From contig NC_014829.1 in NCBI RefSeq assembly GCF_000177235.2, positions 992,001-1,056,000 on the forward strand: DNA of 64,000 nt, in the 5' to 3' direction. The notes beneath the pieces are model-generated. The model worked only from the letters and a program-made list of their open reading frames with translations. It did not search any database and was not told the origin of the DNA. Below are positions 32,629 to 48,917 of this stretch, in pieces. A program made the translations under genes and the position numbers. This DNA comes from Evansella cellulosilytica DSM 2522 (GTDB lineage: Bacteria; Bacillota; Bacilli; Bacillales; Salisediminibacteriaceae). Positions within the stretch are counted from its first letter, which is position 1. Every line of letters begins with the position of its first letter.

Positions 32629-32843
32629 CGTGAATCTCTCCTTCATTATAGAAACTATATAATTTATAGCTAATATATTTTCAATTATATCAAATATATA
32701 TGAGGACTTGTGTTACAACTTTTCGAATCGTAACCATCACGGAAAAAGACGTAATCTCTCGTTTTAACCAAATTGCTTGTAGATGAATATCATAAAAACA
32801 ATGAATAGGCAAATTTAGCATGTAACCATTGTATTGGTGGCGG

Positions 32844-33416
32844 ATGGATGTGAATAATCAACTTTTAGACGTTATTGGTAACTGGATTGAAACGGCTGGA
32901 CAAACAATTGCTGCTATTGCGGAAACGGAAGAGCTTGGAAGTAATGTCATTAGAGGTAAATACAAAGGGATCATCGGAAACGGTCTTCAAGGCATTGGAA
33001 ACACCCTACAGGCAATCGCAGAGGACGAAAGTAGTATTGCTGAAATGGGAGATTGGTTACAGGCTGTAGGTACATTTTCCAATGCTGTATCAGAGTATTT
33101 AGTTGTATTTCAAGAAGCTGATGAACAAACGAGCTTAAGAGTACAAATCCTAGGGGACTCTCTTCAGTCATTAGGTTCATACGTTGAGTCGATTGATAAA
33201 TTAGGCACGGCTCCACTAACGGTGTTAGGTAACATCGCACAATCAATTGGTGCTATGATCGAGGGAATCGGCGTGTTATATGATATAAAAATTGAGGATG
33301 AAGAAGATAATCGAGGCCAAGTACTTCAAACAATTGGTGGATGGATCCAAGCATTTGGTACGGCTTACCAAGCTGTGGGGGCACAAAGAGCATATCTCTA
33401 TGATACAGAGTGGTAG
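32844..33416 (+). CDS. DUF6944-type repetitive protein (copy 1)
   Basis: About 190 residues built of repeated units with a GNWIETAG / GNGLQGIGNTLQAI / GDWLQAVG / GGWIQAFG pattern about every 25-35 residues, as in the DUF6944 repetitive proteins of Bacillaceae. No signal peptide or membrane helix. The start is uncertain: ATG 32844 or GTG 32850, with GGTGG close by. A paralogue follows 650 bases downstream at 34073 with the same repeat layout (about 35-40 percent by eye). Function unknown; spore or stress-related roles have not been shown. Confidence 0.8.
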   Translation: MDVNNQLLDVIGNWIETAGQTIAAIAETEELGSNVIRGKYKGIIGNGLQGIGNTLQAIAEDESSIAEMGDWLQAVGTFSNAVSEYLVVFQEADEQTSLRVQILGDSLQSLGSYVESIDKLGTAPLTVLGNIAQSIGAMIEGIGVLYDIKIEDEEDNRGQVLQTIGGWIQAFGTAYQAVGAQRAYLYDTEW

Positions 33417-34072: not shown

Positions 34073-34627
34073 ATGTCAGAACAACAATTTCTTTATATAG
34101 CTGGAAACTGGATAGAGGCAATTGGTGCAAACGTTGCTGCGGCTGGTGTAAGTATAGAAATACAAGATAGTACGATAGGAAAGTGGACTCGAATTATCGG
34201 GGATGGTATCCAAGGTATAGGAAACTTTATGATAGCTGAAGCAAATGAAGATTCACTTGCAGCATTAGGCAATAGGATTCAAGGAATAGCTTCGGAAGGA
34301 AATGCCGTTTTAGCCTATCATGAATTAATGGATGATAACGAAGAAATAAACAATCAGCTAGAAATCATCAGTGATTCTCTGCAAGCGTTAGGATCCTATA
34401 TTACTGCGGTTGCTAGAAGTGATGATAATCCTCCTAAAGCATTCGGGAATGAACTACAAGCAATTGGTGCAATCGTAGAAGCAATAGGTGTCACGAACAA
34501 ATTAAAGTCTGAAGAGGAGCTGGGAGATCAGTTACGAAATATTGGGAAATGGATTCAAGGAGTTGGTACAATCATACAAGCACTATCAGTAACTCCTGGT
34601 GTCACGATATTTCAGAGAGAAAAATAA
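34073..34627 (+). CDS. DUF6944-type repetitive protein (copy 2)
   Basis: A 184-residue paralogue of the 32844-33416 protein, with the same internal repeats (GNWIEAIGANVAAAG, GDGIQGIGNFM, GNELQAIGAIVEAIG, GKWIQGVGTIIQAL). It is soluble and helical with Gly-Ile/Trp spaced turns. The ATG is preceded by a GGTGGCGATCTT site. A strong terminator follows. The two copies likely arose by a local duplication in which the repeat-rich spacer was inserted. Function unknown. Confidence 0.82.
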   Translation: MSEQQFLYIAGNWIEAIGANVAAAGVSIEIQDSTIGKWTRIIGDGIQGIGNFMIAEANEDSLAALGNRIQGIASEGNAVLAYHELMDDNEEINNQLEIISDSLQALGSYITAVARSDDNPPKAFGNELQAIGAIVEAIGVTNKLKSEEELGDQLRNIGKWIQGVGTIIQALSVTPGVTIFQREK

Positions 34628-37852: not shown

Positions 37853-38026
37853 TTAGTTATTGTTGTTGTTGCGGTTGTTACGGTTGTTTCTGTTATTGCG
37901 GTTGTTTGCATTAGCAGCATTTTCGTTTGCAAATTCAGTGTTTGCATTAACGTTTAAGTCTTGGTTGTTATTATTGTTGTTGTTACGATTGTTGCGATTA
38001 CGATTATTGTTATTGTTATTAGCCAT
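37853..38026 (-). CDS. Asn-rich small protein, gamma-type SASP-like
   Basis: A 57-residue protein made largely of Asn and Arg (MANNNNNNRNRNNRN...), with the central segment NTEFANENAAN. TEFANE matches the TEFASE core of gamma-type small acid-soluble spore proteins (SspE), which are also Asn/Gln-rich and lack other structure. A strong GGGAGGTGATTT site precedes ATG 38026. I think it is a spore core storage protein, cleaved at germination, but it holds one motif where classic SspE has two or more. Low-complexity sequence alone could mislead. Confidence 0.72.
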   Translation of the reverse strand: MANNNNNNRNRNNRNNNNNNNQDLNVNANTEFANENAANANNRNNRNNRNNRNNNNN

Positions 38027-38204: not shown

Positions 38205-38220
38205 TGTGAAATAAATCACA
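38205..38220. promoter_or_regulatory. Rex- or FNR/CRP-type operator before the lipoprotein gene
   Basis: TGTGAAATAAATCACA is a full TGTGA-N6-TCACA palindrome, with a T before it giving TTGTGAAATAAATCACA, close to the Rex consensus of Bacillus. It lies 27 bases before the lipoprotein ATG and just downstream of a TATGAT -10 candidate (38189-38194), a position suited to repression. A near-identical site precedes apbE at 45303. Confidence 0.75.
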
Positions 38221-38246: not shown

Positions 38247-39203
38247 ATGAAATTCAAAGGCTTTTTATTAGTATTAGTATTATTATTATCAGTAGGATTA
38301 ATGGCGGCTTGTGGAGAAGACGAAACAAGTGGCGATGAAGAATCAGATGCAACAACAGGTGCTACGCAAGTAGTAGTCACTGACGAAGCTTCTTTCTTAC
38401 AAGGTATTAGCGAAGACGGTGCTTGGATCATTATTTTAGAAGACGATTTAACTGTTGATGAAGAAATTGTTTTAGCTGGACAATTTACTCACCGTGATGA
38501 GCCAGCACGTAAAATTGCTATTTATGCACAAGATGCTGATCGTAATATTACAGACCAATACACATTAACTGCTCCAAAGCTTACAATTGAAAGTGAAAAC
38601 ACAAGACTGCAAGGTGGTACATTCGCTGGAGATGTAGTTGTAGCTGCAAATGGTTTTAGTATTCCGGACGCTACAATCGAAGGAAACCTTACTTTTGCAA
38701 GCGAAGAATTCGAAGCAAGTGCTGACCTTTCTGGTGGTACTGTGACAGGAACTGTATCTGTTGAAGGTGGAGAAGAAGCTGATGCAGTAACAGGTGCAAC
38801 ACAAATCATGGTTACTGATGCTGAATCATTCTTCCATGGTGTAAGCGCAGATGGGCCTTGGATTATTCTTTTCCAAGATGATTTAACAGTAGATGAAGAA
38901 GTTGTGTTAACTGGTAACCATACACACCGTGATGAGCCAGCTCGTAAATTAGCTTTATATGAGCAAGATGCTGATCGTAATATTACTGCACAATTTACGT
39001 TAACTGCTCCAAAGTTAACGATCCAAAATGAAAACACAAGACTTCAAGGTGGAACATTCGTTGGAGACGTTTACGTAGAAGCGAACAACTTCAGTATTCC
39101 TAATGGTACTATTGAAGGAAATGTTTACTTTGCTAGTGAAGAATTTGAAGCAAGTGCAGACCTTTCTGAGGGTACTGTAACAGGATCTGTAGAAGTACAA
39201 TAA
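38247..39203 (+). CDS. Duplicated lipoprotein with two flavinylation motifs (candidate PplA-like EET carrier)
   Basis: A 318-residue lipoprotein (lipobox LMAAC, Cys22). Two tandem repeats of about 145 residues start at residues 34 and 179. Each repeat opens with a D-x-x-T-G-A-T motif (DATTGAT 34-40; DAVTGAT 179-185), the target sequence of ApbE flavin transferases in which the last Thr takes FMN. The rest of each repeat (THRDEPARKIAIY, TLTAPKLTIES, NTRLQGGTF, ASEEFEASADLS) has a beta-helix-like look and does not resemble the common FMN-binding domain. It is very acidic. An ApbE gene and an EET locus lie 2-10 kb downstream and share its operator type. I infer a surface FMN-protein functionally like PplA of Listeria. 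AGGGGG precedes ATG; a terminator follows. Confidence 0.8.
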   Translation: MKFKGFLLVLVLLLSVGLMAACGEDETSGDEESDATTGATQVVVTDEASFLQGISEDGAWIIILEDDLTVDEEIVLAGQFTHRDEPARKIAIYAQDADRNITDQYTLTAPKLTIESENTRLQGGTFAGDVVVAANGFSIPDATIEGNLTFASEEFEASADLSGGTVTGTVSVEGGEEADAVTGATQIMVTDAESFFHGVSADGPWIILFQDDLTVDEEVVLTGNHTHRDEPARKLALYEQDADRNITAQFTLTAPKLTIQNENTRLQGGTFVGDVYVEANNFSIPNGTIEGNVYFASEEFEASADLSEGTVTGSVEVQ

Positions 39204-40890: not shown

Positions 40891-40968
40891 GAGGCCACTA
40901 AAAAAGTGAAAGAACACGAGGCCGATGAAAAAGTGAAAGAACACCACTTTTTCATCGGCCTTTTTTTC
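40891..40968. repeat. Family B hairpin at the 3' end of dmkB
   Basis: GGCCGATGAAAAAGTG (40920-40935) pairs perfectly with CACTTTTTCATCGGCC (40945-40960), then TTTTTTT on the plus strand. A partial tandem copy, GGCCACTAAAAAAGTGAAAG, precedes it. It reaches the stop codon of the prenyl synthase gene. Confidence 0.85.
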
Positions 40969-41947
40969 AGGATTTTCTTTTTAGTAGCTTTGTAGTAACT
41001 TCCTCCAATATTTCTTTGTAATCACCGGAAGGGAGCTTGCTAAGCTGTTTTAACGCTTTTGCTGTATACTTATCAGCAAGTGCCTGTGCCTTTTCTACTC
41101 CTTTATATTGGTCAATGAGCTCGGCTATTACTGTTAAGTCATTTTCTGTTAGCATGTCTTTTTTTTCTAGGAATGGTTTAAAGGCGTTAGGCTTTTGCTG
41201 CATAGCATAAATTAACGGTAACGTGTAAATTCCTTGCTGCAAATCACTCATCACAGGCTTCCCAAGGCAATGTGAAGACCCTTTAAAATCTAATATGTCA
41301 TCCATTATTTGAAAGGTCATTCCAATGTAGTGCCCCATATTCCAAGCGTTCATTGCTTGTTTTCGAGTAGCACCACCTTCCATTGCACCTGAATAACAAC
41401 TAATGGCGAAAAGCTGAGCTGTTTTCCCTGCAACTCTTGATAAATAGCTTTTTACACTTAACGATGGCTTAAATCTTGAATTTAATTGATCTAGTTCACC
41501 AGCTAGTATTTTTTCCATTCCTCTAGTGTTAAAATCTAGATGGGCTAAGGAACTAGCATGCTGAGCGAGTATTTGAAAGCTAATACAAAACAAATAATCA
41601 CCTGAATAAATCGCAAATTTATTTCCATGCATTGTATGAATCGTTGCATGATTATGCCTCGTGTCCGCATCATCAATAACGTCATCATGAACGAGGGAGG
41701 CCATGTGAATGGCTTCAATCGCAGCCGCAACGGCTACTGCTTTTTCTTTTTCACTATCTGGTCCGATTTGGGAGCATAAGAGTGAATACGCAGGCCTGAG
41801 AAGCTTTCCACCAGAGTGAACAAGATTATTAATGGTTGCTGCAACGGTTTTGTCACGAACACGAACATGTGACTCTATTAAAGAGAGTACAGAAGATAAA
41901 TTTGTTTTTAATTCAGGATATCCATCCCACATTTGATGTACACGCAT
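40967..41947 (-). CDS. dmkB: Polyprenyl diphosphate synthase, EET type
   Basis: A 326-residue trans-polyprenyl synthase making the isoprenoid tail of a (demethyl)menaquinone. The two Asp-rich motifs are DDVIDDAD and DDILD (in QIMDDILDFKG), with GGKLLRP near the start. In the Listeria EET locus the matching gene is dmkB, which supplies a dedicated demethylmenaquinone pool to Ndh2. The partner prenyltransferase gene (dmkA) is not in this window. ATG 41947 has GAGG 8 bases upstream. It follows the EetB gene by 49 bases on the same strand, so an eetA-eetB-dmkB operon is likely. It could also be a heptaprenyl synthase component II. Confidence 0.88.
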   Translation of the reverse strand: MRVHQMWDGYPELKTNLSSVLSLIESHVRVRDKTVAATINNLVHSGGKLLRPAYSLLCSQIGPDSEKEKAVAVAAAIEAIHMASLVHDDVIDDADTRHNHATIHTMHGNKFAIYSGDYLFCISFQILAQHASSLAHLDFNTRGMEKILAGELDQLNSRFKPSLSVKSYLSRVAGKTAQLFAISCYSGAMEGGATRKQAMNAWNMGHYIGMTFQIMDDILDFKGSSHCLGKPVMSDLQQGIYTLPLIYAMQQKPNAFKPFLEKKDMLTENDLTVIAELIDQYKGVEKAQALADKYTAKALKQLSKLPSGDYKEILEEVTTKLLKRKS

Positions 41948-41996
41948 AGTCTTAACCTCTTTCATTCTAGAATTATGTTACATCTATTTAAGCTAT

Positions 41997-42533
41997 TTAC
42001 ACTTTTCTTAAATCACGCAACTCCTTATAGTAATGAAGCTTTTCTACGTGAGTAAGCAAATAGTTAGCAGCTATACCTACAGCAATTCCTGACAAGACAC
42101 CGATAAACGACAATACAGGTAAATATAGGAGCACAGTCCACGTTTGTGCAATCCAGCTTGCAATGCTTAATTGCCCTACGTTGTGTAAGATTGCTCCTGT
42201 AACACTTACGCCGATCATGCTCACACGAGAAGGACCAAGCTTGTGCACAGCCCACATACCGATGAAGCTAATGACTGCACCAGCTGCGCTATACATAAAT
42301 GTCGAAATTGTTCCTCCTAACAAAGCTGTTAAAACAATCCTTATCCCGACAACTTTTGCTGCGTCTTTCGTAGATAAAGTGTAAATCGCCATAACTGTAA
42401 TAATATTGGCTAAACCTAATTTTGCTCCAGGAGCAAAGGCGAATGGAAAGGGAATCGCTCTTTCTAGTAAACCGATAATGACGGCTTGAGATGCTAACAA
42501 TGCGATATATACGAGTCGTTGATTTTTTGTCAT
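41997..42533 (-). CDS. eetB: EetB, Gx transporter family membrane protein
   Basis: A 178-residue membrane protein with five or six helices of the family once called heptaprenyl diphosphate synthase component I and now Gx transporter. Signature: ERAIPFPFAFAPGAKLGLANIITV-type Pro/Gly-rich start, GGTISTFMYSAAGAVISF and GAILHNVGQL. In Listeria this is EetB, needed for extracellular electron transfer. Start ATG 42533 (GGAAG 12 bases upstream) or TTG 42542. Its gene lies 50 bases after eetA and 49 before dmkB. Confidence 0.9.
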   Translation of the reverse strand: MTKNQRLVYIALLASQAVIIGLLERAIPFPFAFAPGAKLGLANIITVMAIYTLSTKDAAKVVGIRIVLTALLGGTISTFMYSAAGAVISFIGMWAVHKLGPSRVSMIGVSVTGAILHNVGQLSIASWIAQTWTVLLYLPVLSFIGVLSGIAVGIAANYLLTHVEKLHYYKELRDLRKV

Positions 42534-42583
42534 ATGTCCCAACTTCCAATCTATTAGACTTTAGGGAATCTCTAAAACTATCA

Positions 42584-42994
42584 TTAATAGCTTATGATGA
42601 TTTCATCTGTATGTCCTTGAACAGCTTGAATTTCAATAATAACCCTATGGTGTAGACAAATAATCGTTTGGCCTGGTCTAGAAATAAAGCCTGTTAAAAC
42701 ACAAATTTGTTCTGGGCAGTGAGAGCTTTTCATTCTAATTTGTCCATCTTTTAACTCAATCGATTCTGTATCACACGGAACACCAGGGATATCAAGTATG
42801 TCATTTCCTACATGTCCTGTAAGTGTAATTTCTTCAACAACTTCGTTATCAACAGAGATGATAGCAACAAGCTCTGCATCTTCGGAAATTCCAGCCTGCT
42901 GATAACTGAAGACAGCAGAGGGCAAAAAAGATAAGAGAAGTAGTGTTACGATAATGACCCAATCCCAACGTTTAAAAAGTCGAAGTAGTTTCAT
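42584..42994 (-). CDS. eetA: EetA, NusG domain II membrane-anchored protein
   Basis: A 136-residue protein with one N-terminal membrane helix (WDWVIIVTLLLLSFLPSAVF) and an extracytoplasmic NusG_II domain. The conserved region includes CPEQICVLTGFISRPGQTII with two Cys, and a third Cys (CLHH). Such proteins accompany EetB in EET loci and are thought to link the membrane quinone pool to the surface carrier. The start is ATG 42994; the GGAGGGG site lies somewhat far (13 bases), and a TTG at 43015 is unlikely. First gene of the eetA-eetB-dmkB unit; a terminator separates it from ndh2. Confidence 0.9.
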   Translation of the reverse strand: MKLLRLFKRWDWVIIVTLLLLSFLPSAVFSYQQAGISEDAELVAIISVDNEVVEEITLTGHVGNDILDIPGVPCDTESIELKDGQIRMKSSHCPEQICVLTGFISRPGQTIICLHHRVIIEIQAVQGHTDEIIISY

Positions 42995-43032
42995 GCTTTC
43001 TTTTTTCCCCTCCAATGTCTAGATTTTTAATG

Positions 43033-43089: not shown

Positions 43090-45006
43090 TTACATACTCT
43101 TGCCTTTAGATTTTGTCGTAGTTGTTGAGCTAGAACGATGATCACTATAGATCGCTCTTTCCTTTCCATACCACCAGTTTCCAACTTTTTGTTGAACGTA
43201 TGGTATAACCCAGTAATCTAAGCCTAATGTGCGTCCAGAACCATTCATCAGTGCAATTGAAGCAGGGAATGCCCAAGCTTTATCCCATCCGAGCATGGCT
43301 GTGAATGTAAACATAAGAAGTAATCCAGCACTTACTGCACTTGAAATCCAAGTAAATAAACCGAAAATAAGGGCAAATCCTATAGCAACCTCTAGAAGCA
43401 CCATCACTTTTTGAGCAAATAAAGCCATTTCCATTGAAGGAAGAGAAAGTCTCATCATCCATTCAAACCAGAAAGGAATTTCGCTTAAAATTGGCTCTGC
43501 CCATGTAGCTCCGTCTGTAGCAGCGGTTGTAGCAGCAGTAGTACCGTCAGATAGCCACCATAAATCCATGTTCAGTGTTGAACTTGTTAGCCATGAATCT
43601 TCCCCAAAGCCTTGGAAAAGCTTCGGTAATGAGGAAAAACTAGCAGTAGCTTCTTCCCACTTCGTATAACCCCAAACTTTAGGTAGCGCTTCACTTAACC
43701 AAAATATCCCTACACCGACCCTTAATGGGACACTCCATAGTACATTTCCAAATCGTGTTGGTAGACCACGGAACACATTTCTTTTATCTTTTGTATGGAA
43801 AAACTCATGTGATACGTATTGCCACATATAGTAGCCACTTCTGATTGTGAAGAAATAATATAAGTTCACCATGTGCTTCATAAAGTTTGCGAACCATCCA
43901 CTAAGATGGATGCCACTTAAGTTTGCAACACCGTACCTTGCTCCGATAGAGACCATAACACCGTGATATTTACCTTTGTATTCCTTTTTCTCAGTACCTT
44001 TCATATCAGCGATGATGTTATCAGCGGCTGTATGTGCCGTTTGCTCGGCAGCCTCTACGATTTGTGGAATCGGTTTACCTGGCTCTTCCTCGTAATAAGC
44101 TAAGTCACCAACAACATAAACGTTTTCTAAACCTTCTGCTTCCATATAGGCATTTACATTTAGTCGACCAGCGCGTCCAGTGGACATACCATAGTCTTCT
44201 GTATCCGAGTTTGCTTTCACTCCTGCAGTCCAGATAAGTGTATGCGTCGGTATTACTTGACCTGTTTTTAGTAGAATCGAATCAGCTTTTACTTCAACGA
44301 TAGGGGAGCTCTTTAAGATTTCTACGCCTTTTTTAACTAAGTATTTTTCTGCCTTATCTGCATCTTTTCTGTCAAGCATGTTTAAAATAGTCGGTGCAGC
44401 TTCAATCACTTGCAGTGTAATATCTTCCACATCTAGTTTGTTTTGCTTTGCTAGACGATCCTTCCACTCTATTAATTCACCAACCATTTCAATTCCTGTA
44501 AAGCCCGATCCACAGACAGTAAATGTGAGCATAGCTCTTCGTGTTGCTTCATCATGAACTTGTGCAGCCTTTTGAACCGTTTTTTCAATATGCTCGCGAA
44601 GCTTTACTGCATCTTCCCAAGACCATAATGTAAATCCGTGTTCGCCAACACCTGGAGTACCAAAATCGTTAGGCTCTCCCCCCATACCTAAAATAAGGTA
44701 GTCATAGGAAAACTCTCCGTGCGTTGTTTTCACTGTTTTGCTCTCATGATCTACTTTTGTCACATTGTCTGTGACAAGTTTCACTTTCGTTCGATTAAAA
44801 AGACGTCTTAAGTCGAACTGGATTGCGTCAGGCTCTACACGGTGTGCAGCAACCTCATGTAATTCGGTCATCATAGTATGGTAAGAATGACGATCTATTA
44901 AAGTAATAGACACAGAATCGTCTTTCTTGTATTTCTTAGCAAGCTTTTTTGCTGCGGCAACTCCTGCATAGCCTGCGCCAATGATGACAATGTTCTTCTC
45001 TGCCAT
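43090..45006 (-). CDS. ndh2: Ndh2-type NADH dehydrogenase with C-terminal membrane (DoxX-like) domain
   Basis: A 638-residue flavoprotein. Residues 1-400 are a type II NADH dehydrogenase: FAD motif IVIIGAGYAGVAAAKKL, NAD motif TVCGSGFTGIEMVGEL, and VYVVGDLAYYEE. The last 240 residues add about four helices of DoxX character (RVGVGIFWLSEALPKVWGY, VMVLLEVAIGFALIFGL), with a low-complexity Thr/Ala loop near 480. Ordinary Bacillus Ndh has about 400 residues; the extension is the mark of EET Ndh2, which passes electrons from NADH to the demethylmenaquinone pool for export. ATG 45006 has AAGGAG upstream. Divergent from apbE. Confidence 0.92.
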   Translation of the reverse strand: MAEKNIVIIGAGYAGVAAAKKLAKKYKKDDSVSITLIDRHSYHTMMTELHEVAAHRVEPDAIQFDLRRLFNRTKVKLVTDNVTKVDHESKTVKTTHGEFSYDYLILGMGGEPNDFGTPGVGEHGFTLWSWEDAVKLREHIEKTVQKAAQVHDEATRRAMLTFTVCGSGFTGIEMVGELIEWKDRLAKQNKLDVEDITLQVIEAAPTILNMLDRKDADKAEKYLVKKGVEILKSSPIVEVKADSILLKTGQVIPTHTLIWTAGVKANSDTEDYGMSTGRAGRLNVNAYMEAEGLENVYVVGDLAYYEEEPGKPIPQIVEAAEQTAHTAADNIIADMKGTEKKEYKGKYHGVMVSIGARYGVANLSGIHLSGWFANFMKHMVNLYYFFTIRSGYYMWQYVSHEFFHTKDKRNVFRGLPTRFGNVLWSVPLRVGVGIFWLSEALPKVWGYTKWEEATASFSSLPKLFQGFGEDSWLTSSTLNMDLWWLSDGTTAATTAATDGATWAEPILSEIPFWFEWMMRLSLPSMEMALFAQKVMVLLEVAIGFALIFGLFTWISSAVSAGLLLMFTFTAMLGWDKAWAFPASIALMNGSGRTLGLDYWVIPYVQQKVGNWWYGKERAIYSDHRSSSTTTTKSKGKSM

Positions 45007-45360
45007 AATATTTTCACTCCTTAATATCCACAAGAAGAAATCGCTTGTGAAGTTATGAACAACTAACATAAAGTTTACATCTCCTTTATGTATCTGTCTA
45101 TGAAGTTCACGGAATAGTAACAAAGTTATTAAACTAAAATGTTCATAATAATATCATATTTTATGCACTATAAAGTTAATAAACTATTTTAAGCTTAAGG
45201 TAGCAATACTTTTCGTTTTTCAAAATGAATCTTGATCTTGAATGCTAGCTTTTGGCTATATAGACAGAAAAAAAGAGCGATGCTATACTAGCGGTGATTA
45301 TTTGTGATTTATTTCACAGGTTCGGTTACATTAAAAATATTATTGAGATGAGGGTTAACT
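45007..45360. promoter_or_regulatory. Divergent control region ndh2/apbE
   Basis: A 354-base AT-rich space between the two divergent EET units. It contains the operator at 45303-45318. A -10 candidate TATTAT (45338-45343) lies about 30 bases after the operator centre, fitting a class II activator site for apbE. TATAGC (45286-45281, minus) could serve the ndh2 side. No gene is present. Confidence 0.6.
45303..45318. promoter_or_regulatory. Rex- or FNR/CRP-type operator between ndh2 and apbE
   Basis: TGTGATTTATTTCACA is a perfect TGTGA-N6-TCACA palindrome (with a leading T, TTGTGATTTATTTCACA). It matches the site before the lipoprotein gene at 38205 in both half-sites and spacing. Rex senses the NADH/NAD+ ratio and FNR senses oxygen; either makes sense for a respiratory electron export system. 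Confidence 0.8.
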
Positions 45361-46425
45361 ATGAAAAAGTTTTATGCTTTCGTATCGTTGATTTCATTAG
45401 CGGGTTTCCTAATTGGATGTGGAAGCGCAGCAAGCTCACCATCAGAGGGAAGCGTATCAGAAAAGCCTATAAGAAAAACAGAGATGGCTATTGGGACGGT
45501 CGTTACTTTGAGAATATATGATGAAGGAAAAGAAGAGGTAATGGATGCTGCCTTTGAAAGAATCCATGAGTTAGGTGACAAAATAGCCGTTAATATAGAA
45601 GGATCAGATGTGGACAATATAAACGAAAATGCAGGTGTAGAGCCTGTTGAAGTTTCCCCTGTAGTATTTAAGTTAGTTGAAAGAGGCATCACCCATGCCG
45701 AAGATACGAGTGGATTATTTAATATTGCAGTAGGTCCGTTAACATCACTATGGAACATCGGCTTTGACGATGCACGTAAGCCAGAACAGCATGAAATAGA
45801 TGAAATTTTACCATTAATGGACCATACGAAAATTGAGATTAACAAAGAGAAGCAGACTGTATTTTTAGCAGAAGAGGGAATGAGATTAGATTTAGGTGGG
45901 ATAGCGAAAGGATACATTGCAGATTTAATTGCAGAGTTGATGGTAGAGCACGGTGTTACTGCAGGAATAATAGATTTAGGTGGGGACATCATCGTCATTG
46001 GTAACAACCCTTCAGGAAAACCTTGGTCAATAGGGATTCAGGATCCGTTAGCTAGTAGAGGACAGCCAGTTGGCACGATTGATGCTACTGATGAGTCGAT
46101 CGTAACATCTGGAATATATGAGCGAATACTGAAGGAAGAGGATGGAGAATACCACCATTTACTAAACCCATTTGACGGTTATCCATTTATGAATGAACTT
46201 GCTGGAGTGACGATCGTTTCAGAGGAATCAATCGATGGAGATGCTTACTCTACAGCAGTTTTCGGTATGGGAGTAAACGAGGGCTTTGAATATGTAGAAA
46301 ATGTAGATGGAGTAGACGCGGTATTTGTTACGAGAGACAGGGAAATATTTGTCACATCAGGCTTAGTTGATAGATTTACATTAACGAATGAAAACTATGA
46401 GGTAGTCGACCTTCCTCAACCGTAA
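45361..46425 (+). CDS. apbE: FAD:protein FMN transferase (ApbE/FmnB), lipoprotein
   Basis: A 354-residue lipoprotein (LIGC lipobox, Cys20) of the ApbE family. It transfers FMN from FAD to Thr in D-x-x-[ST]-G-A-T motifs of extracytoplasmic proteins, with Mg2+. The conserved TEMAIGTVVTLRIYD start, LDLGGIAKGYIADLIAE, DLGGDIIVIG and GDAYSTAVFGMG (metal Asp) are present. In EET loci this is FmnB. Its likely substrate in this window is the duplicated lipoprotein at 38247. The ATG has GAGGG upstream, and it leads an operon with the ECF genes (next gene 40 bases on). Confidence 0.94.
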   Translation: MKKFYAFVSLISLAGFLIGCGSAASSPSEGSVSEKPIRKTEMAIGTVVTLRIYDEGKEEVMDAAFERIHELGDKIAVNIEGSDVDNINENAGVEPVEVSPVVFKLVERGITHAEDTSGLFNIAVGPLTSLWNIGFDDARKPEQHEIDEILPLMDHTKIEINKEKQTVFLAEEGMRLDLGGIAKGYIADLIAELMVEHGVTAGIIDLGGDIIVIGNNPSGKPWSIGIQDPLASRGQPVGTIDATDESIVTSGIYERILKEEDGEYHHLLNPFDGYPFMNELAGVTIVSEESIDGDAYSTAVFGMGVNEGFEYVENVDGVDAVFVTRDREIFVTSGLVDRFTLTNENYEVVDLPQP

Positions 46426-46465: not shown

Positions 46466-47278
46466 ATGAGCGCACCTATATTAGAGGTGAAAAACCTCTC
46501 ATTCCGCTATGACTTAAGGTCTGAAATAAACACCGTAGCAAACCTCTCTTTTTCAGTTAATAAAGGAGAATGGCTCGCAATTATTGGTGGTAATGGTTCC
46601 GGGAAATCTACTTTAGCGCAATTGTTAGTCGGTTTATTAACACCGTTAGACGGTTGTATAACGGTTGATGGCACAGCGTTAACGGAAAAATCGAAATGGC
46701 GAATTCGTAGTAAAGTCGGATTAGTTTTTCAAAACCCTGATAACCAATTTATCGGTACAACGGTACAGGATGATGTTGCCTTTAGCTTAGAAAGCTTAAA
46801 TGTACCATACGAAGAAATGAAATTAAGAGTCGAGTGTGCTTTAGAGAAAGTAGGTATGCTAGAATACCGGTTTCATGACCCCTCTCGTCTATCAGGTGGA
46901 CAAAAGCAGCGTGTTGCAATTGCTGGCATATTAGCGCTTCACCCAAACGTCATTATTTTTGACGAGGCTTTCGTTATGCTTGATCCAAAAGGGAGAGAAG
47001 GCTTGTTAAAAACATTAAGACGACTAAAAGAAATAGAAGGGGTAACGATCATATCTATCACACACGATATGAACGAGGCGGCAGCTGCTGATCGACTTTT
47101 ATTAATGAAAAACGGTGAAATCTCCCAAACTGGTAAACCGAGCGAAGTATTCATGCAACAACGAGATTTAGAGCCCCCTTTTCCAGAAAAACTAAGGCGT
47201 TCATTAGAAAAAAAGGGGAGACATGTCCCTAATCAATATATGACAGAAGAAGAAGTGGTGAACTGGATATGGAAGTGA
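46466..47278 (+). CDS. ecfA1: ECF transporter ATPase A1
   Basis: A 270-residue ABC ATPase of an energy-coupling-factor transporter. Walker A GGNGSGKST, Q-loop VFQNPDNQF, signature LSGGQKQRVAIAG, Walker B VIIFDEAFVMLDP and the H-loop THD are complete. Walker B has DEAFVMLDP where most EcfA have DEATSMLDP. It lies downstream of apbE with AAAGGAGG upstream and overlaps ecfA2 by 10 bases. The normal Bacillus ecfA1-A2-T lies in the ribosomal protein region; this copy in the EET locus is a dedicated one, as in Listeria, where it works in flavin supply for surface flavinylation. Confidence 0.92.
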   Translation: MSAPILEVKNLSFRYDLRSEINTVANLSFSVNKGEWLAIIGGNGSGKSTLAQLLVGLLTPLDGCITVDGTALTEKSKWRIRSKVGLVFQNPDNQFIGTTVQDDVAFSLESLNVPYEEMKLRVECALEKVGMLEYRFHDPSRLSGGQKQRVAIAGILALHPNVIIFDEAFVMLDPKGREGLLKTLRRLKEIEGVTIISITHDMNEAAAADRLLLMKNGEISQTGKPSEVFMQQRDLEPPFPEKLRRSLEKKGRHVPNQYMTEEEVVNWIWK

Positions 47279-48126
47279 AATTGGAACATGTAACCGCTGA
47301 CTACCAATTGGGACCTATTCGTAGCTTTAATGTCCTGCAAGATGTTGAAATGAAAGTTGAATCTGGCTCTTTTACTGCCGTAATTGGAAAAACAGGTGCC
47401 GGAAAATCAAGCTTATTAAAAATAATGAATGGATTACTACTACCAAAGCAGGGCAAAGTGACTATTGGTGATGCTATTATCACTCCAGGTAAAAATAAAA
47501 AAGCTCTAAAATCAATTAGAAAACGAGTCGGGATGGTGTTCCAATTTCCAGAGTCGCAGCTCTTTGCTGAAACGGTTGAGCAAGATATTTGTTTTGGCCC
47601 ATTGAATTTCGGTGCATCTAAAGAAGAAGCGAAGGAATTGGCGAGAAAAGTCATCAAGCAAGTCGGTTTAACAGCTGACATATTGTCAAAGTCACCATTC
47701 ACACTTTCAGGAGGACAAAAACGCCGAATAGCAATAGCAGGTATTTTAGCGATGGAACCAGATATACTTGTGCTTGATGAACCAGGTGCAGGCTTAGACC
47801 CGAAAGGAAAACTAGATATATTGTCGTCAATAGCATCGTGGCACAAAGAGCAAGGCCTTACTACTTTAATCGTGACACACGATATGGAAGACGTTGCTCA
47901 ATTTGCAAATAATATTGTCATTATGGACAAAGGGACAGTCGTGCTCCACGACGCCGTCCGCAACGTATTTTCGAACAAAGCGATCATTGATAAATGGCAG
48001 CTAGATGTACCAGAAGCACTCAAGTTTCAAATGAAAATCGAAGAAAAAACAGGGGTTAAACTACCCAAAGTTTGCTTAACGATTGAGGAATTGACAGAGT
48101 CTTTAATTGAGGCGGGATTAGCATGA
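47269..48126 (+). CDS. ecfA2: ECF transporter ATPase A2
   Basis: A 285-residue second ABC ATPase, paralogue of EcfA1: Walker A GKTGAGKSS, Q-loop VFQFPESQLF, signature LSGGQKRRIAIAG, Walker B ILVLDEPGAGLDP and THD. The C-terminal extension (about 60 residues) is typical of EcfA2. Its ATG lies inside the end of ecfA1 and its TGA overlaps the ecfT start by four bases, so the three are translationally coupled and form one complex at the inner membrane. Confidence 0.93.
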   Translation: MEVKLEHVTADYQLGPIRSFNVLQDVEMKVESGSFTAVIGKTGAGKSSLLKIMNGLLLPKQGKVTIGDAIITPGKNKKALKSIRKRVGMVFQFPESQLFAETVEQDICFGPLNFGASKEEAKELARKVIKQVGLTADILSKSPFTLSGGQKRRIAIAGILAMEPDILVLDEPGAGLDPKGKLDILSSIASWHKEQGLTTLIVTHDMEDVAQFANNIVIMDKGTVVLHDAVRNVFSNKAIIDKWQLDVPEALKFQMKIEEKTGVKLPKVCLTIEELTESLIEAGLA

Positions 48127-48917
48127 ATAAACTAATACTTGGCCGTTATTTCCCAGGAGACACATCGCTTCATAAACTAGATCCAAGAGCAAAGCTAGTT
48201 TCAGGTGTAGCCTTTATTTTCATTATTTTTCTAGCTCGCAACTGGGAGGCTTATGCACTACTTTGGTTATTTACTTTTCTAGTGATGAAGCTGTCAGGAG
48301 TTGGCTTTAAAACATATTTGCGCGGCGTTCGACCACTCATTTGGCTAATCCTATTCACTGTGTTTATTCAAGTCTTGTTTAGAACTGGAGGCACGGTGTA
48401 TGTCGATTATGGCCCTATTACAATTACCCAATTCGGCGTCGTAAATGGCATTCATATTTTTTTCCGATTCGTTATGATCGTATTCGTTACTACTGCAATT
48501 ACGCTAACTACGAAGCCAATAGATCTCACAGATGGCATTAACTATTTGTTACGACCGCTACGCATATTTAAAATACCAGTAAATGATTTAGCGTTAATGC
48601 TATCAATCTCATTACGCTTCATCCCTAACTTACTAGACGAAACGCAAAAAATAATGGATGCACAACGAGCGAGAGGAAGTGAGTTTGGAGAAGGGAATCT
48701 CTTAAAGCAAATGAAGGTGCTAGTACCAGTATTTCTCCCCTTATTTGTGAGTTCGTTAAACCGTGCGGAAGAAATGGCGAATGCAATGGAAGTGCGAGGG
48801 TATCAATCAGGAGAACAGCGGACAACCTTCCGTCAATTAACCTGGAAAAACAAAGACACTATATGCTTATTTGCCATGATCGTACTAACTTTATCTTTGT
48901 ATTTGTTAACAGTGTGA
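48123..48917 (+). CDS. ecfT: ECF transporter T component
   Basis: A 264-residue membrane protein with about six helices, the transmembrane coupling unit of the ECF module. Coupling helices carry the conserved Ala-Arg-Gly-type motifs: AQRARGSEFG and MEVRGYQSG. The start ATG overlaps the ecfA2 stop (ATGA). No S component gene, such as a RibU/FmnA-like riboflavin binder, is present in the window, so the substrate unit must lie elsewhere. In EET loci it is a flavin-specific S component. Confidence 0.92.
   Translation: MNKLILGRYFPGDTSLHKLDPRAKLVSGVAFIFIIFLARNWEAYALLWLFTFLVMKLSGVGFKTYLRGVRPLIWLILFTVFIQVLFRTGGTVYVDYGPITITQFGVVNGIHIFFRFVMIVFVTTAITLTTKPIDLTDGINYLLRPLRIFKIPVNDLALMLSISLRFIPNLLDETQKIMDAQRARGSEFGEGNLLKQMKVLVPVFLPLFVSSLNRAEEMANAMEVRGYQSGEQRTTFRQLTWKNKDTICLFAMIVLTLSLYLLTV

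Follow-up and report, generated by a model that had tools for sequence, protein, structure and literature searches.

Genes and features of the locus

The window, that is, the entire stretch of 64,000 nucleotides of Evansella cellulosilytica DNA analysed here, contains a flavin-based extracellular electron transfer (EET) locus, hereafter FLEET locus, and a lipoprotein gene, the features of which are collected in Table 1. Matches to the Pfam families NusG_II, Hpre_diP_synt_I, polyprenyl synthase, Pyr_redox_2 and ApbE bear out the initial annotation, which had placed apbE and the EET genes near the lipoprotein gene. The designation ndh2 follows the FLEET gene order and is thus putative; in the C-terminal part of this protein the Pfam matches to DoxX/MauE were sub-threshold only. 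The closest PDB entry to the window ApbE is 7esa (E 4.8e-108), which we take to be Listeria FmnB. Homologues of ecfA, ecfA' and ecfT occupy the same place in other FLEET loci. In Listeria, EetB is described as a FAD-binding ECF-S-like protein, and flavinylation of PplA requires EetB, FmnA and the ECF ATPases unless FAD is added (available text of PMC9973259). The window locus displays the same gene kinds as this Listeria set, without PplA.

Further elements lie in the same region. Just before the lipoprotein gene, the raw sequence alone reveals a short minus-strand reading frame rich in Asn and Arg (window approximately 37857–38026). The open reading frames at window 32829–33416 (195 aa) and 34073–34627 (184 aa) look related by eye and are full of GNxIQAIG-like repeats.

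Table 1 Features of the lipoprotein gene and the FLEET locus (window coordinates).
Feature	Position	Strand	Details
Palindromic operator-like site before the lipoprotein gene, TGTGAAATAAATCACA	38205..38220	.	One of two perfect sites in 64 kb
Two-domain lipoprotein, predicted ApbE substrate	38247..39203	+	ATG start, 318 aa, AGGGGG ahead
Lipoprotein signal peptide	38247..38312	+	LMAAC, Cys22; by eye
Flavinylation motif 1	38346..38366	+	DATTGAT, residues 34–40, predicted acceptor Thr40
Repeat 1, motif plus beta-helix domain	38346..38780	+
Flavinylation motif 2	38781..38801	+	DAVTGAT, residues 179–185, predicted acceptor Thr185
Repeat 2, motif plus beta-helix domain	38781..39200	+	pLDDT 94.6
Polyprenyl diphosphate synthase (DmkB/HepT-like)	40967..41965	-	Pfam PF00348
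eetB	41997..42542	-	Pfam PF07456 (Hpre_diP_synt_I)
eetA (NusG domain II)	42584..43015	-	Pfam PF07009
ndh2-like NADH dehydrogenase	43090..45006	-	Pfam PF07992 (Pyr_redox_2); start by eye at MAEKNIV
Second perfect operator-like site, before apbE, TGTGATTTATTTCACA	45303..45318	.
apbE/fmnB, FAD:protein FMN transferase	45361..46425	+	Pfam PF02424, E 1.4e-81
ecfA, ecfA', ecfT (FmnA-like), ECF transporter genes	46466..48917	+	Named by eye from ORFs

Architecture of the lipoprotein

The N-terminus of the lipoprotein is hydrophobic and ends in LMAAC (by eye), consistent with export to the compartment of ApbE, and Cys22 is invariant across 13 two-domain sequences, the window's own included. The signal is followed by an acidic linker and by two repeats of approximately 145 residues each, which are 74% identical and carry the motif at the same place. 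Both motifs display the full ApbE consensus, D-x-x-[S/T]-G-A-[S/T], as defined in the available text of a 2025 review (PMC12052999), as the initial annotation had read them. A chance origin of the pair was rejected: when the mature lipoprotein was shuffled 20,000 times, at least one D-x-x-[ST]-G-A-[ST] appeared in 151 shuffles and two in 0. The protein thus combines several properties expected of an ApbE substrate, namely two complete motifs, an N-terminus that by eye is exported and an ApbE encoded in the same genome.

Predicted fold of the repeat

Structure prediction models the lipoprotein repeat as a parallel beta-helix with a pLDDT of 94.6. In these models the repeat would be a right-handed beta-helix with the motif in a flexible segment at its N-terminal edge; the motif segment has low model confidence, and no flavin pocket was identified in the models. 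No Pfam or NCBIfam model scored over its cut-off on the lipoprotein, Pfam gave no FMN_bind (PF04205) match on it, and FMN_bind was likewise absent for 63 family domains among the best 25 of the 26 families listed. A profile–profile comparison of the beta-helix family with PplA (hhalign) returned a probability of 0.4%, with the motif region alone aligned. Sequence searches of the PDB found no relative of the domain, and Foldseek with the repeat model found no PDB match at E 0.001 or better. The FMN_bind fold was also not among the 50 VIA-align entries listed (145 chains aligned), a result without weight on its own. The match of the window protein to bactofilin (PF04519) reaches 15.7 bits, below the Pfam gathering cut-off of 27.9. 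The proposal that the domain is beta-helix-like rather than an FMN-binding domain is therefore supported by the solenoid model and the hhalign result. The accompanying claim of an undescribed fold needs correction, as the modelled fold class, a pectate-lyase/bactofilin-like solenoid, is already known, and it is the use of this class as an ApbE substrate that would be new.

Conservation of the motif across the family

When genome contigs were scanned with the family alignment, 95 stretches matched. Relatives are encoded by 43 of them, which fall into 41 loci, and only two of these loci have a label other than Bacillota or a member of Bacillota. In the clade of the window protein G-A-T is kept in 20 of 20 domains at identities of 48–99%, and the clade has a support of 97/85 in a tree built without the motif, on which the G-A state needs four changes over 64 family domains. 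These 64 domains were extracted with a motif-shaped regular expression, which favours motif conservation, and among them position 1 is always D or E, positions 4 and 7 are invariably S or T, and Ala occupies position 6 in 61. Position 5 is occupied by Gly in 24 domains, Thr in 16, Ala in 13 and Ser in 11, so that the Gly of the motif is replaced in 40 of the 64, some of them FLEET-adjacent. The set omits repeat fetches of the same genes, the L055 protein, which is the same as the L066 protein, and a masked domain; alignment A3 (63 rows), used for the first structure prediction, also omits the plasmid row.

A second, independent extraction relied on a profile from which the motif had been left out. 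It yielded 77 distinct domains with an N-end, with 2 partial domains set aside. Of these, 74 fit [DE]xx[ST][GTAS][AP][ST] and one is unreadable owing to masked letters; the two non-fitting domains, DAVTSSS and DAVGSAS, both retain Ser at the acceptor. The acceptor position is thus Ser or Thr in all 76 readable family domains. Motif conservation in orthologues, which the initial annotation had set as a test of its proposal, is consequently supported, and a site of ApbE type persists in nearly the entire beta-helix family, in part of it in canonical form.

FLEET-adjacent members without the Gly include DVVTTAS in genomes G106 and G137, DAVTTAS/DAVTSAS in G272, DAVSTAS in Saliterribacillus and DTVTAAS in G271, the last of which encodes a second member, DATSGAT, elsewhere. 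The strict consensus is therefore not needed in that genomic place. In a Klebsiella protein, a Gly-to-Ala change of the motif is reported to leave approximately 50% flavinylation (available text of PMC12052999). The ApbE motif may be less strict than its written form, or else the site of the non-Gly members has another use; we tentatively favour the first.

Several members depart from the two-domain layout or from the expected host. A paralogue in the window's own genome (G000:C1:1472760-1473290; L008, L135:7767-8306) is a single-domain lipoprotein with DVVTTAS, away from FLEET genes. Niameybacter massiliensis encodes a protein of 637 aa (L030:9407-11317) with three family domains (TSAS, SGAS and TGAS) and, by eye, a LysM-like part; a free-standing DAVSGAS, a motif without a domain, follows its signal peptide and precedes a Thr/Ser/Lys/Pro linker. 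A member with EVVSGAS is encoded at L010:2797-3438 (NZ_CP151545.1), in a record labelled as a Pseudomonas aeruginosa plasmid; the surrounding 6.4-kb stretch is matched by no other plasmid record, and the record may be mislabelled or contain foreign DNA.

A shared operator-like site

The sequence TGTGANNNNNNTCACA occurs exactly twice in the 64-kb window, at 38205 before the lipoprotein gene and at 45303 before apbE. Two sites compare with 0.06 expected, and 0 of 100 window shuffles contained two. The matching operator noted initially thus corresponds to the only two perfect sites in the window. The general pattern is TGTGA-N6-TCACA, which presumably suits proteins of the Rex or Fnr/Crp type. 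It is perfect in seven of the eight apbE–ndh2 intervals of other loci, the eighth having one mismatch, and upstream of 11 of the 25 distinct family genes scanned in other loci (26 upstream stretches, taken from loci already gathered and measured from open-frame starts). The palindrome before the DVVTTAS paralogue has two mismatches. A different palindrome-like element, TTGTGAAGTTATGAACAA, is located before ndh2 (window 45044–45063), and similar sites with two mismatches occur in several other FLEET loci; we presume that this element may be a Rex site.

Co-occurrence with ApbE and FLEET neighbourhood

In a sample of 397 genomes of the order, the family was found in 8, ApbE in 78 and FMN_bind in 32, and all eight family genomes have ApbE (Fisher p 1.6e-6, relatedness ignored). 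ApbE was classed as FmnB-like at 265 bits or more, a line set after the scores had been seen, at the gap between 266 and 249 bits. Twelve of the 397 genomes have such an ApbE: five hold the family only, six PplA only, one (G272) both and none neither, a near-exclusion of family and PplA within the 12 with p 0.015 (Fisher, relatedness ignored). The family is present in 6 of these 12 genomes against 2 of the other 385 (Fisher p 4.8e-9, relatedness ignored). Besides the window, FLEET genes were seen in the stretches read from 11 of the 12, comprising five family genomes and six PplA genomes (one on two contigs). Seven of the 12 have PplA-like ORFs, which span 306–328 aa and match FMN_bind once or twice; G271 was not counted as PplA-bearing, its sole FMN_bind match lying in a 591-aa frame.

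Among genome entries with a family member, 45 of 46 encode ApbE and 46 of 48 an EetA-type NusG_II domain, and 12 of 46 have no FMN_bind match; two pairs among the 46 are the same genome with identical coordinates (G002 = G060 and G011 = G068). ApbE is missing from G089 alone, a MAG under the label Phycisphaerales. This entry is probably mis-binned, since the protein encoded on its 3.4-kb contig is identical to that of L066. NusG_II is lacking in G089 and in G013. Both G013 and G022 have TGAT members, yet FMN_bind proteins are present and the ApbE scores are weaker, and no FLEET genes were found in the 16–17 kb read around these members.

The family gene lies within approximately 10 kb of FLEET genes in eight loci from at least six genera by labels, namely the window, Litchfieldia, Texcoconibacillus, Saliterribacillus, G106, G137, G271 and G272. 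In Texcoconibacillus the order ndh2-eetA-eetB is continued on the same strand by the family gene. FLEET genes were present in just 3 of the 41 contig-scan loci (flanks of up to 10 kb), and in the majority of distant relatives the family gene stands away from them. Within the FLEET stretches of G137 and G397 eetA was not found; G137 has NusG_II elsewhere.

In Alkalibacterium pelagium, an indigo-vat study reports EET genes and did not find PplA (available text of PMC10572741). Its contig NZ_FNZU01000010.1 (L036) encodes two family genes, with EVTTGAT and DAVTAAS, and the genome also has one 185-aa FMN_bind frame. The beta-helix family is thus a strong candidate for the PplA substitute in this species, and because of the FMN_bind frame not the sole one.

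Other candidate substrates in the genomes

The window's genome encodes one ApbE and contains 0 FMN_bind (PF04205) matches, so that the initial claim of no other plausible PplA in the locus extends to the whole genome. A DNA pattern for the strict motif gave 24 matches in this genome against 7 for a reversed control pattern. The true motif holders of at least 300 aa are the lipoprotein, counted twice for its two motifs, a cytoplasmic segment of chemoreceptor-like appearance and a membrane permease with DVSSGAS (names by eye). Another clear canonical ApbE substrate was accordingly rejected for this genome, the motif search having left only the chemoreceptor-like segment and the permease.

Three further genomes (G066, G106 and G137), with no FMN_bind match and with known family members of the TTAS/STAS type only, gave 20, 16 and 25 strict-pattern matches, against 5, 10 and 4 for the reversed controls. 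Eight matches per genome whose codons can read [ST]-G-A-[ST] were kept by eye. Seventeen of these 24 stretches hold the motif, 11 in frames of at least 280 aa, which by eye (several frames being cut by the stretch) are mostly cytoplasmic-looking enzymes and include one symporter-like membrane protein. Possibly secreted motif frames, also by eye, are a polysaccharide-lyase-like frame in G066 and a large frame in G106, with no evident redox link. FMN_bind matches are likewise absent from the Saliterribacillus genome, and G272, where PplA is present, gave 27 strict-pattern DNA matches.

Proposed role and alternative explanations

Some Gram-positive EET bacteria seem to use a beta-helix surface lipoprotein with two predicted flavin sites in the place of PplA. 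For the canonical clade that includes the window protein, we consider it likely that the members are PplA-like two-flavin EET lipoproteins and ApbE substrates on a scaffold new for this role. The computational findings behind the proposal are two conserved motifs, a predicted beta-helix, a genome free of FMN_bind matches and the shared operator. In addition, the family accompanies ApbE and EetA across genomes, lies near FLEET genes in eight loci and is nearly exclusive with PplA. From the sequences we infer FMN attachment, electron transfer and a tether. FAD would be supplied outside the membrane to ApbE/FmnB by the EetB-EcfAA'T proteins, and ApbE/FmnB would attach FMN to Thr40 and Thr185 of the lipoprotein. 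The two FMNs may then pass electrons from the Ndh2/demethylmenaquinone/EetA side to outside acceptors. The motif is placed in a flexible segment at the N-terminal edge of the beta-helix instead of in an FMN_bind domain, and a short tether would thus hold the flavin. Several observations weigh against the proposal: FLEET-adjacent members can lack the Gly of the motif, FLEET genes accompany the family in few contig-scan loci, G272 has both PplA and the family, and G013 and G022 combine TGAT members with FMN_bind proteins and weaker ApbE scores. Likewise, the models show no flavin pocket, and EET can proceed without PplA in Lactococcus and in an L. plantarum mutant (available text of PMC8837199).

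An unlikely explanation, though the most serious of those weighed, is that the motif serves the beta-helix as a structural N-cap, TGAT being one variant of a looser DxxTxAS cap, in an EET protein that binds quinone, metal or the cell wall without flavin. The loss of the Gly in 40 of 64 domains and the DxxTTAS, TAAS and STAS members at the same FLEET position would suit such a cap. Against it, all 64 domains have Ser or Thr at positions 4 and 7, and 61 have Ala at position 6, under an extraction that favoured this result, with 74 of 76 readable domains conforming in the profile-based extraction. G-A-T is absolute throughout one whole clade. Moreover, the motif segment is of low confidence in the models, with no cap-like packing predicted, and a cap would leave the FmnB-type ApbE and the FAD-export genes without a clear extracytoplasmic substrate in the genome.

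It is considerably more improbable that the substrate of ApbE is a different protein of this genome, one with a degenerate site, and that the lipoprotein is adhesin-like and merely co-regulated. Beta-helix folds are common in adhesins, the DNA pattern detects the strict motif only and the membrane permease also holds DVSSGAS. In addition, Lactococcus without pplA still gives current and a pplA deletion in L. plantarum keeps the anode current (available text of PMC8837199); EET is thus not always dependent on PplA, and no substitute is necessarily required where PplA is lacking. The recurrent FLEET neighbourhood, the near-exclusion with PplA and the co-occurrence with ApbE argue against an adhesin. 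The shared architecture, a lipoprotein with a motif in each of two repeats, could also suggest a divergent FMN_bind/PplA homologue missed by profiles. This identity was rejected, and we give it next to no credence, on the Pfam comparison of the 63 domains (again among the best 25 of 26 families listed), the hhalign probability with its alignment confined to the motif region and the confidently modelled solenoid.

The two-flavin carrier thus remains the preferred reading for the canonical clade. A broader proposal is that the whole family is flavinylated, D-x-x-T-[T/A/S]-A-S included, that the FmnB-type ApbE of these bacteria accepts a small non-Gly residue at position 5 and that this class replaced PplA in a large part of the FLEET bacteria, Alkalibacterium among them. 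We advance it tentatively, its chances being somewhat short of even. If true, the whole family would constitute separate extracellular electron carriers, with FMNs on flexible tethers along beta-helix scaffolds.

The family bears on a stated gap, since Meheust et al. note that some orphan-apbE genomes are left over and that the less prevalent substrates of ApbE have yet to be identified (available text of PMC8238504). For a group of Bacillota the beta-helix family offers a direct, testable answer to this problem, and it would fill the PplA gap stated for Alkalibacterium pelagium (available text of PMC10572741). If true, flavin on a beta-helix would extend the known flavinylation scaffolds by one fold. 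The TTAS variants would also probe the strictness of the ApbE motif.

Comparison with known systems

No description of the family appeared among the listings of searches in an open-access library, and one may still exist in print; the available text of PMC8238504 and PMC10979944 describes no beta-helix ApbE substrate. The same sources report ApbE substrates without FMN_bind, namely DUF2271, DUF3570, Flavodoxin_4 and FMN_red proteins, the FMN_red substrates including Lactococcus, which itself lacks PplA. The window protein resembles these in having no FMN_bind, but its domain is different. Bactofilin and pectate-lyase-like proteins may share the modelled solenoid class; the window protein differs from them by secretion as a lipoprotein and by the N-terminal ApbE motif, and its bactofilin match lies under the Pfam cut-off.

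The closest likeness is to PplA of the Listeria type. Both proteins are lipoproteins with two repeats, each with an ApbE-type motif, and both are tied to FLEET genes, the motifs of PplA-like proteins in related genomes (DVVTGAT, EVVTGAT or EVVSGAT) being comparable to those of the window protein. The encoding within FLEET loci that marks PplA was found in the window and in seven other loci, and is missing from most distant loci. In contrast to PplA, which has the FMN_bind domain, the window protein has a predicted beta-helix with the motif at the N-terminal edge of the domain, and the family gene lies beyond the polyprenyl synthase gene or after eetB, not between apbE and ndh2. Thus, the lipoprotein probably works like PplA but lies outside the PplA/FMN_bind family, and the lipoprotein family, which is real and conserved, probably provides a two-flavin carrier in Gram-positive EET where PplA is missing.
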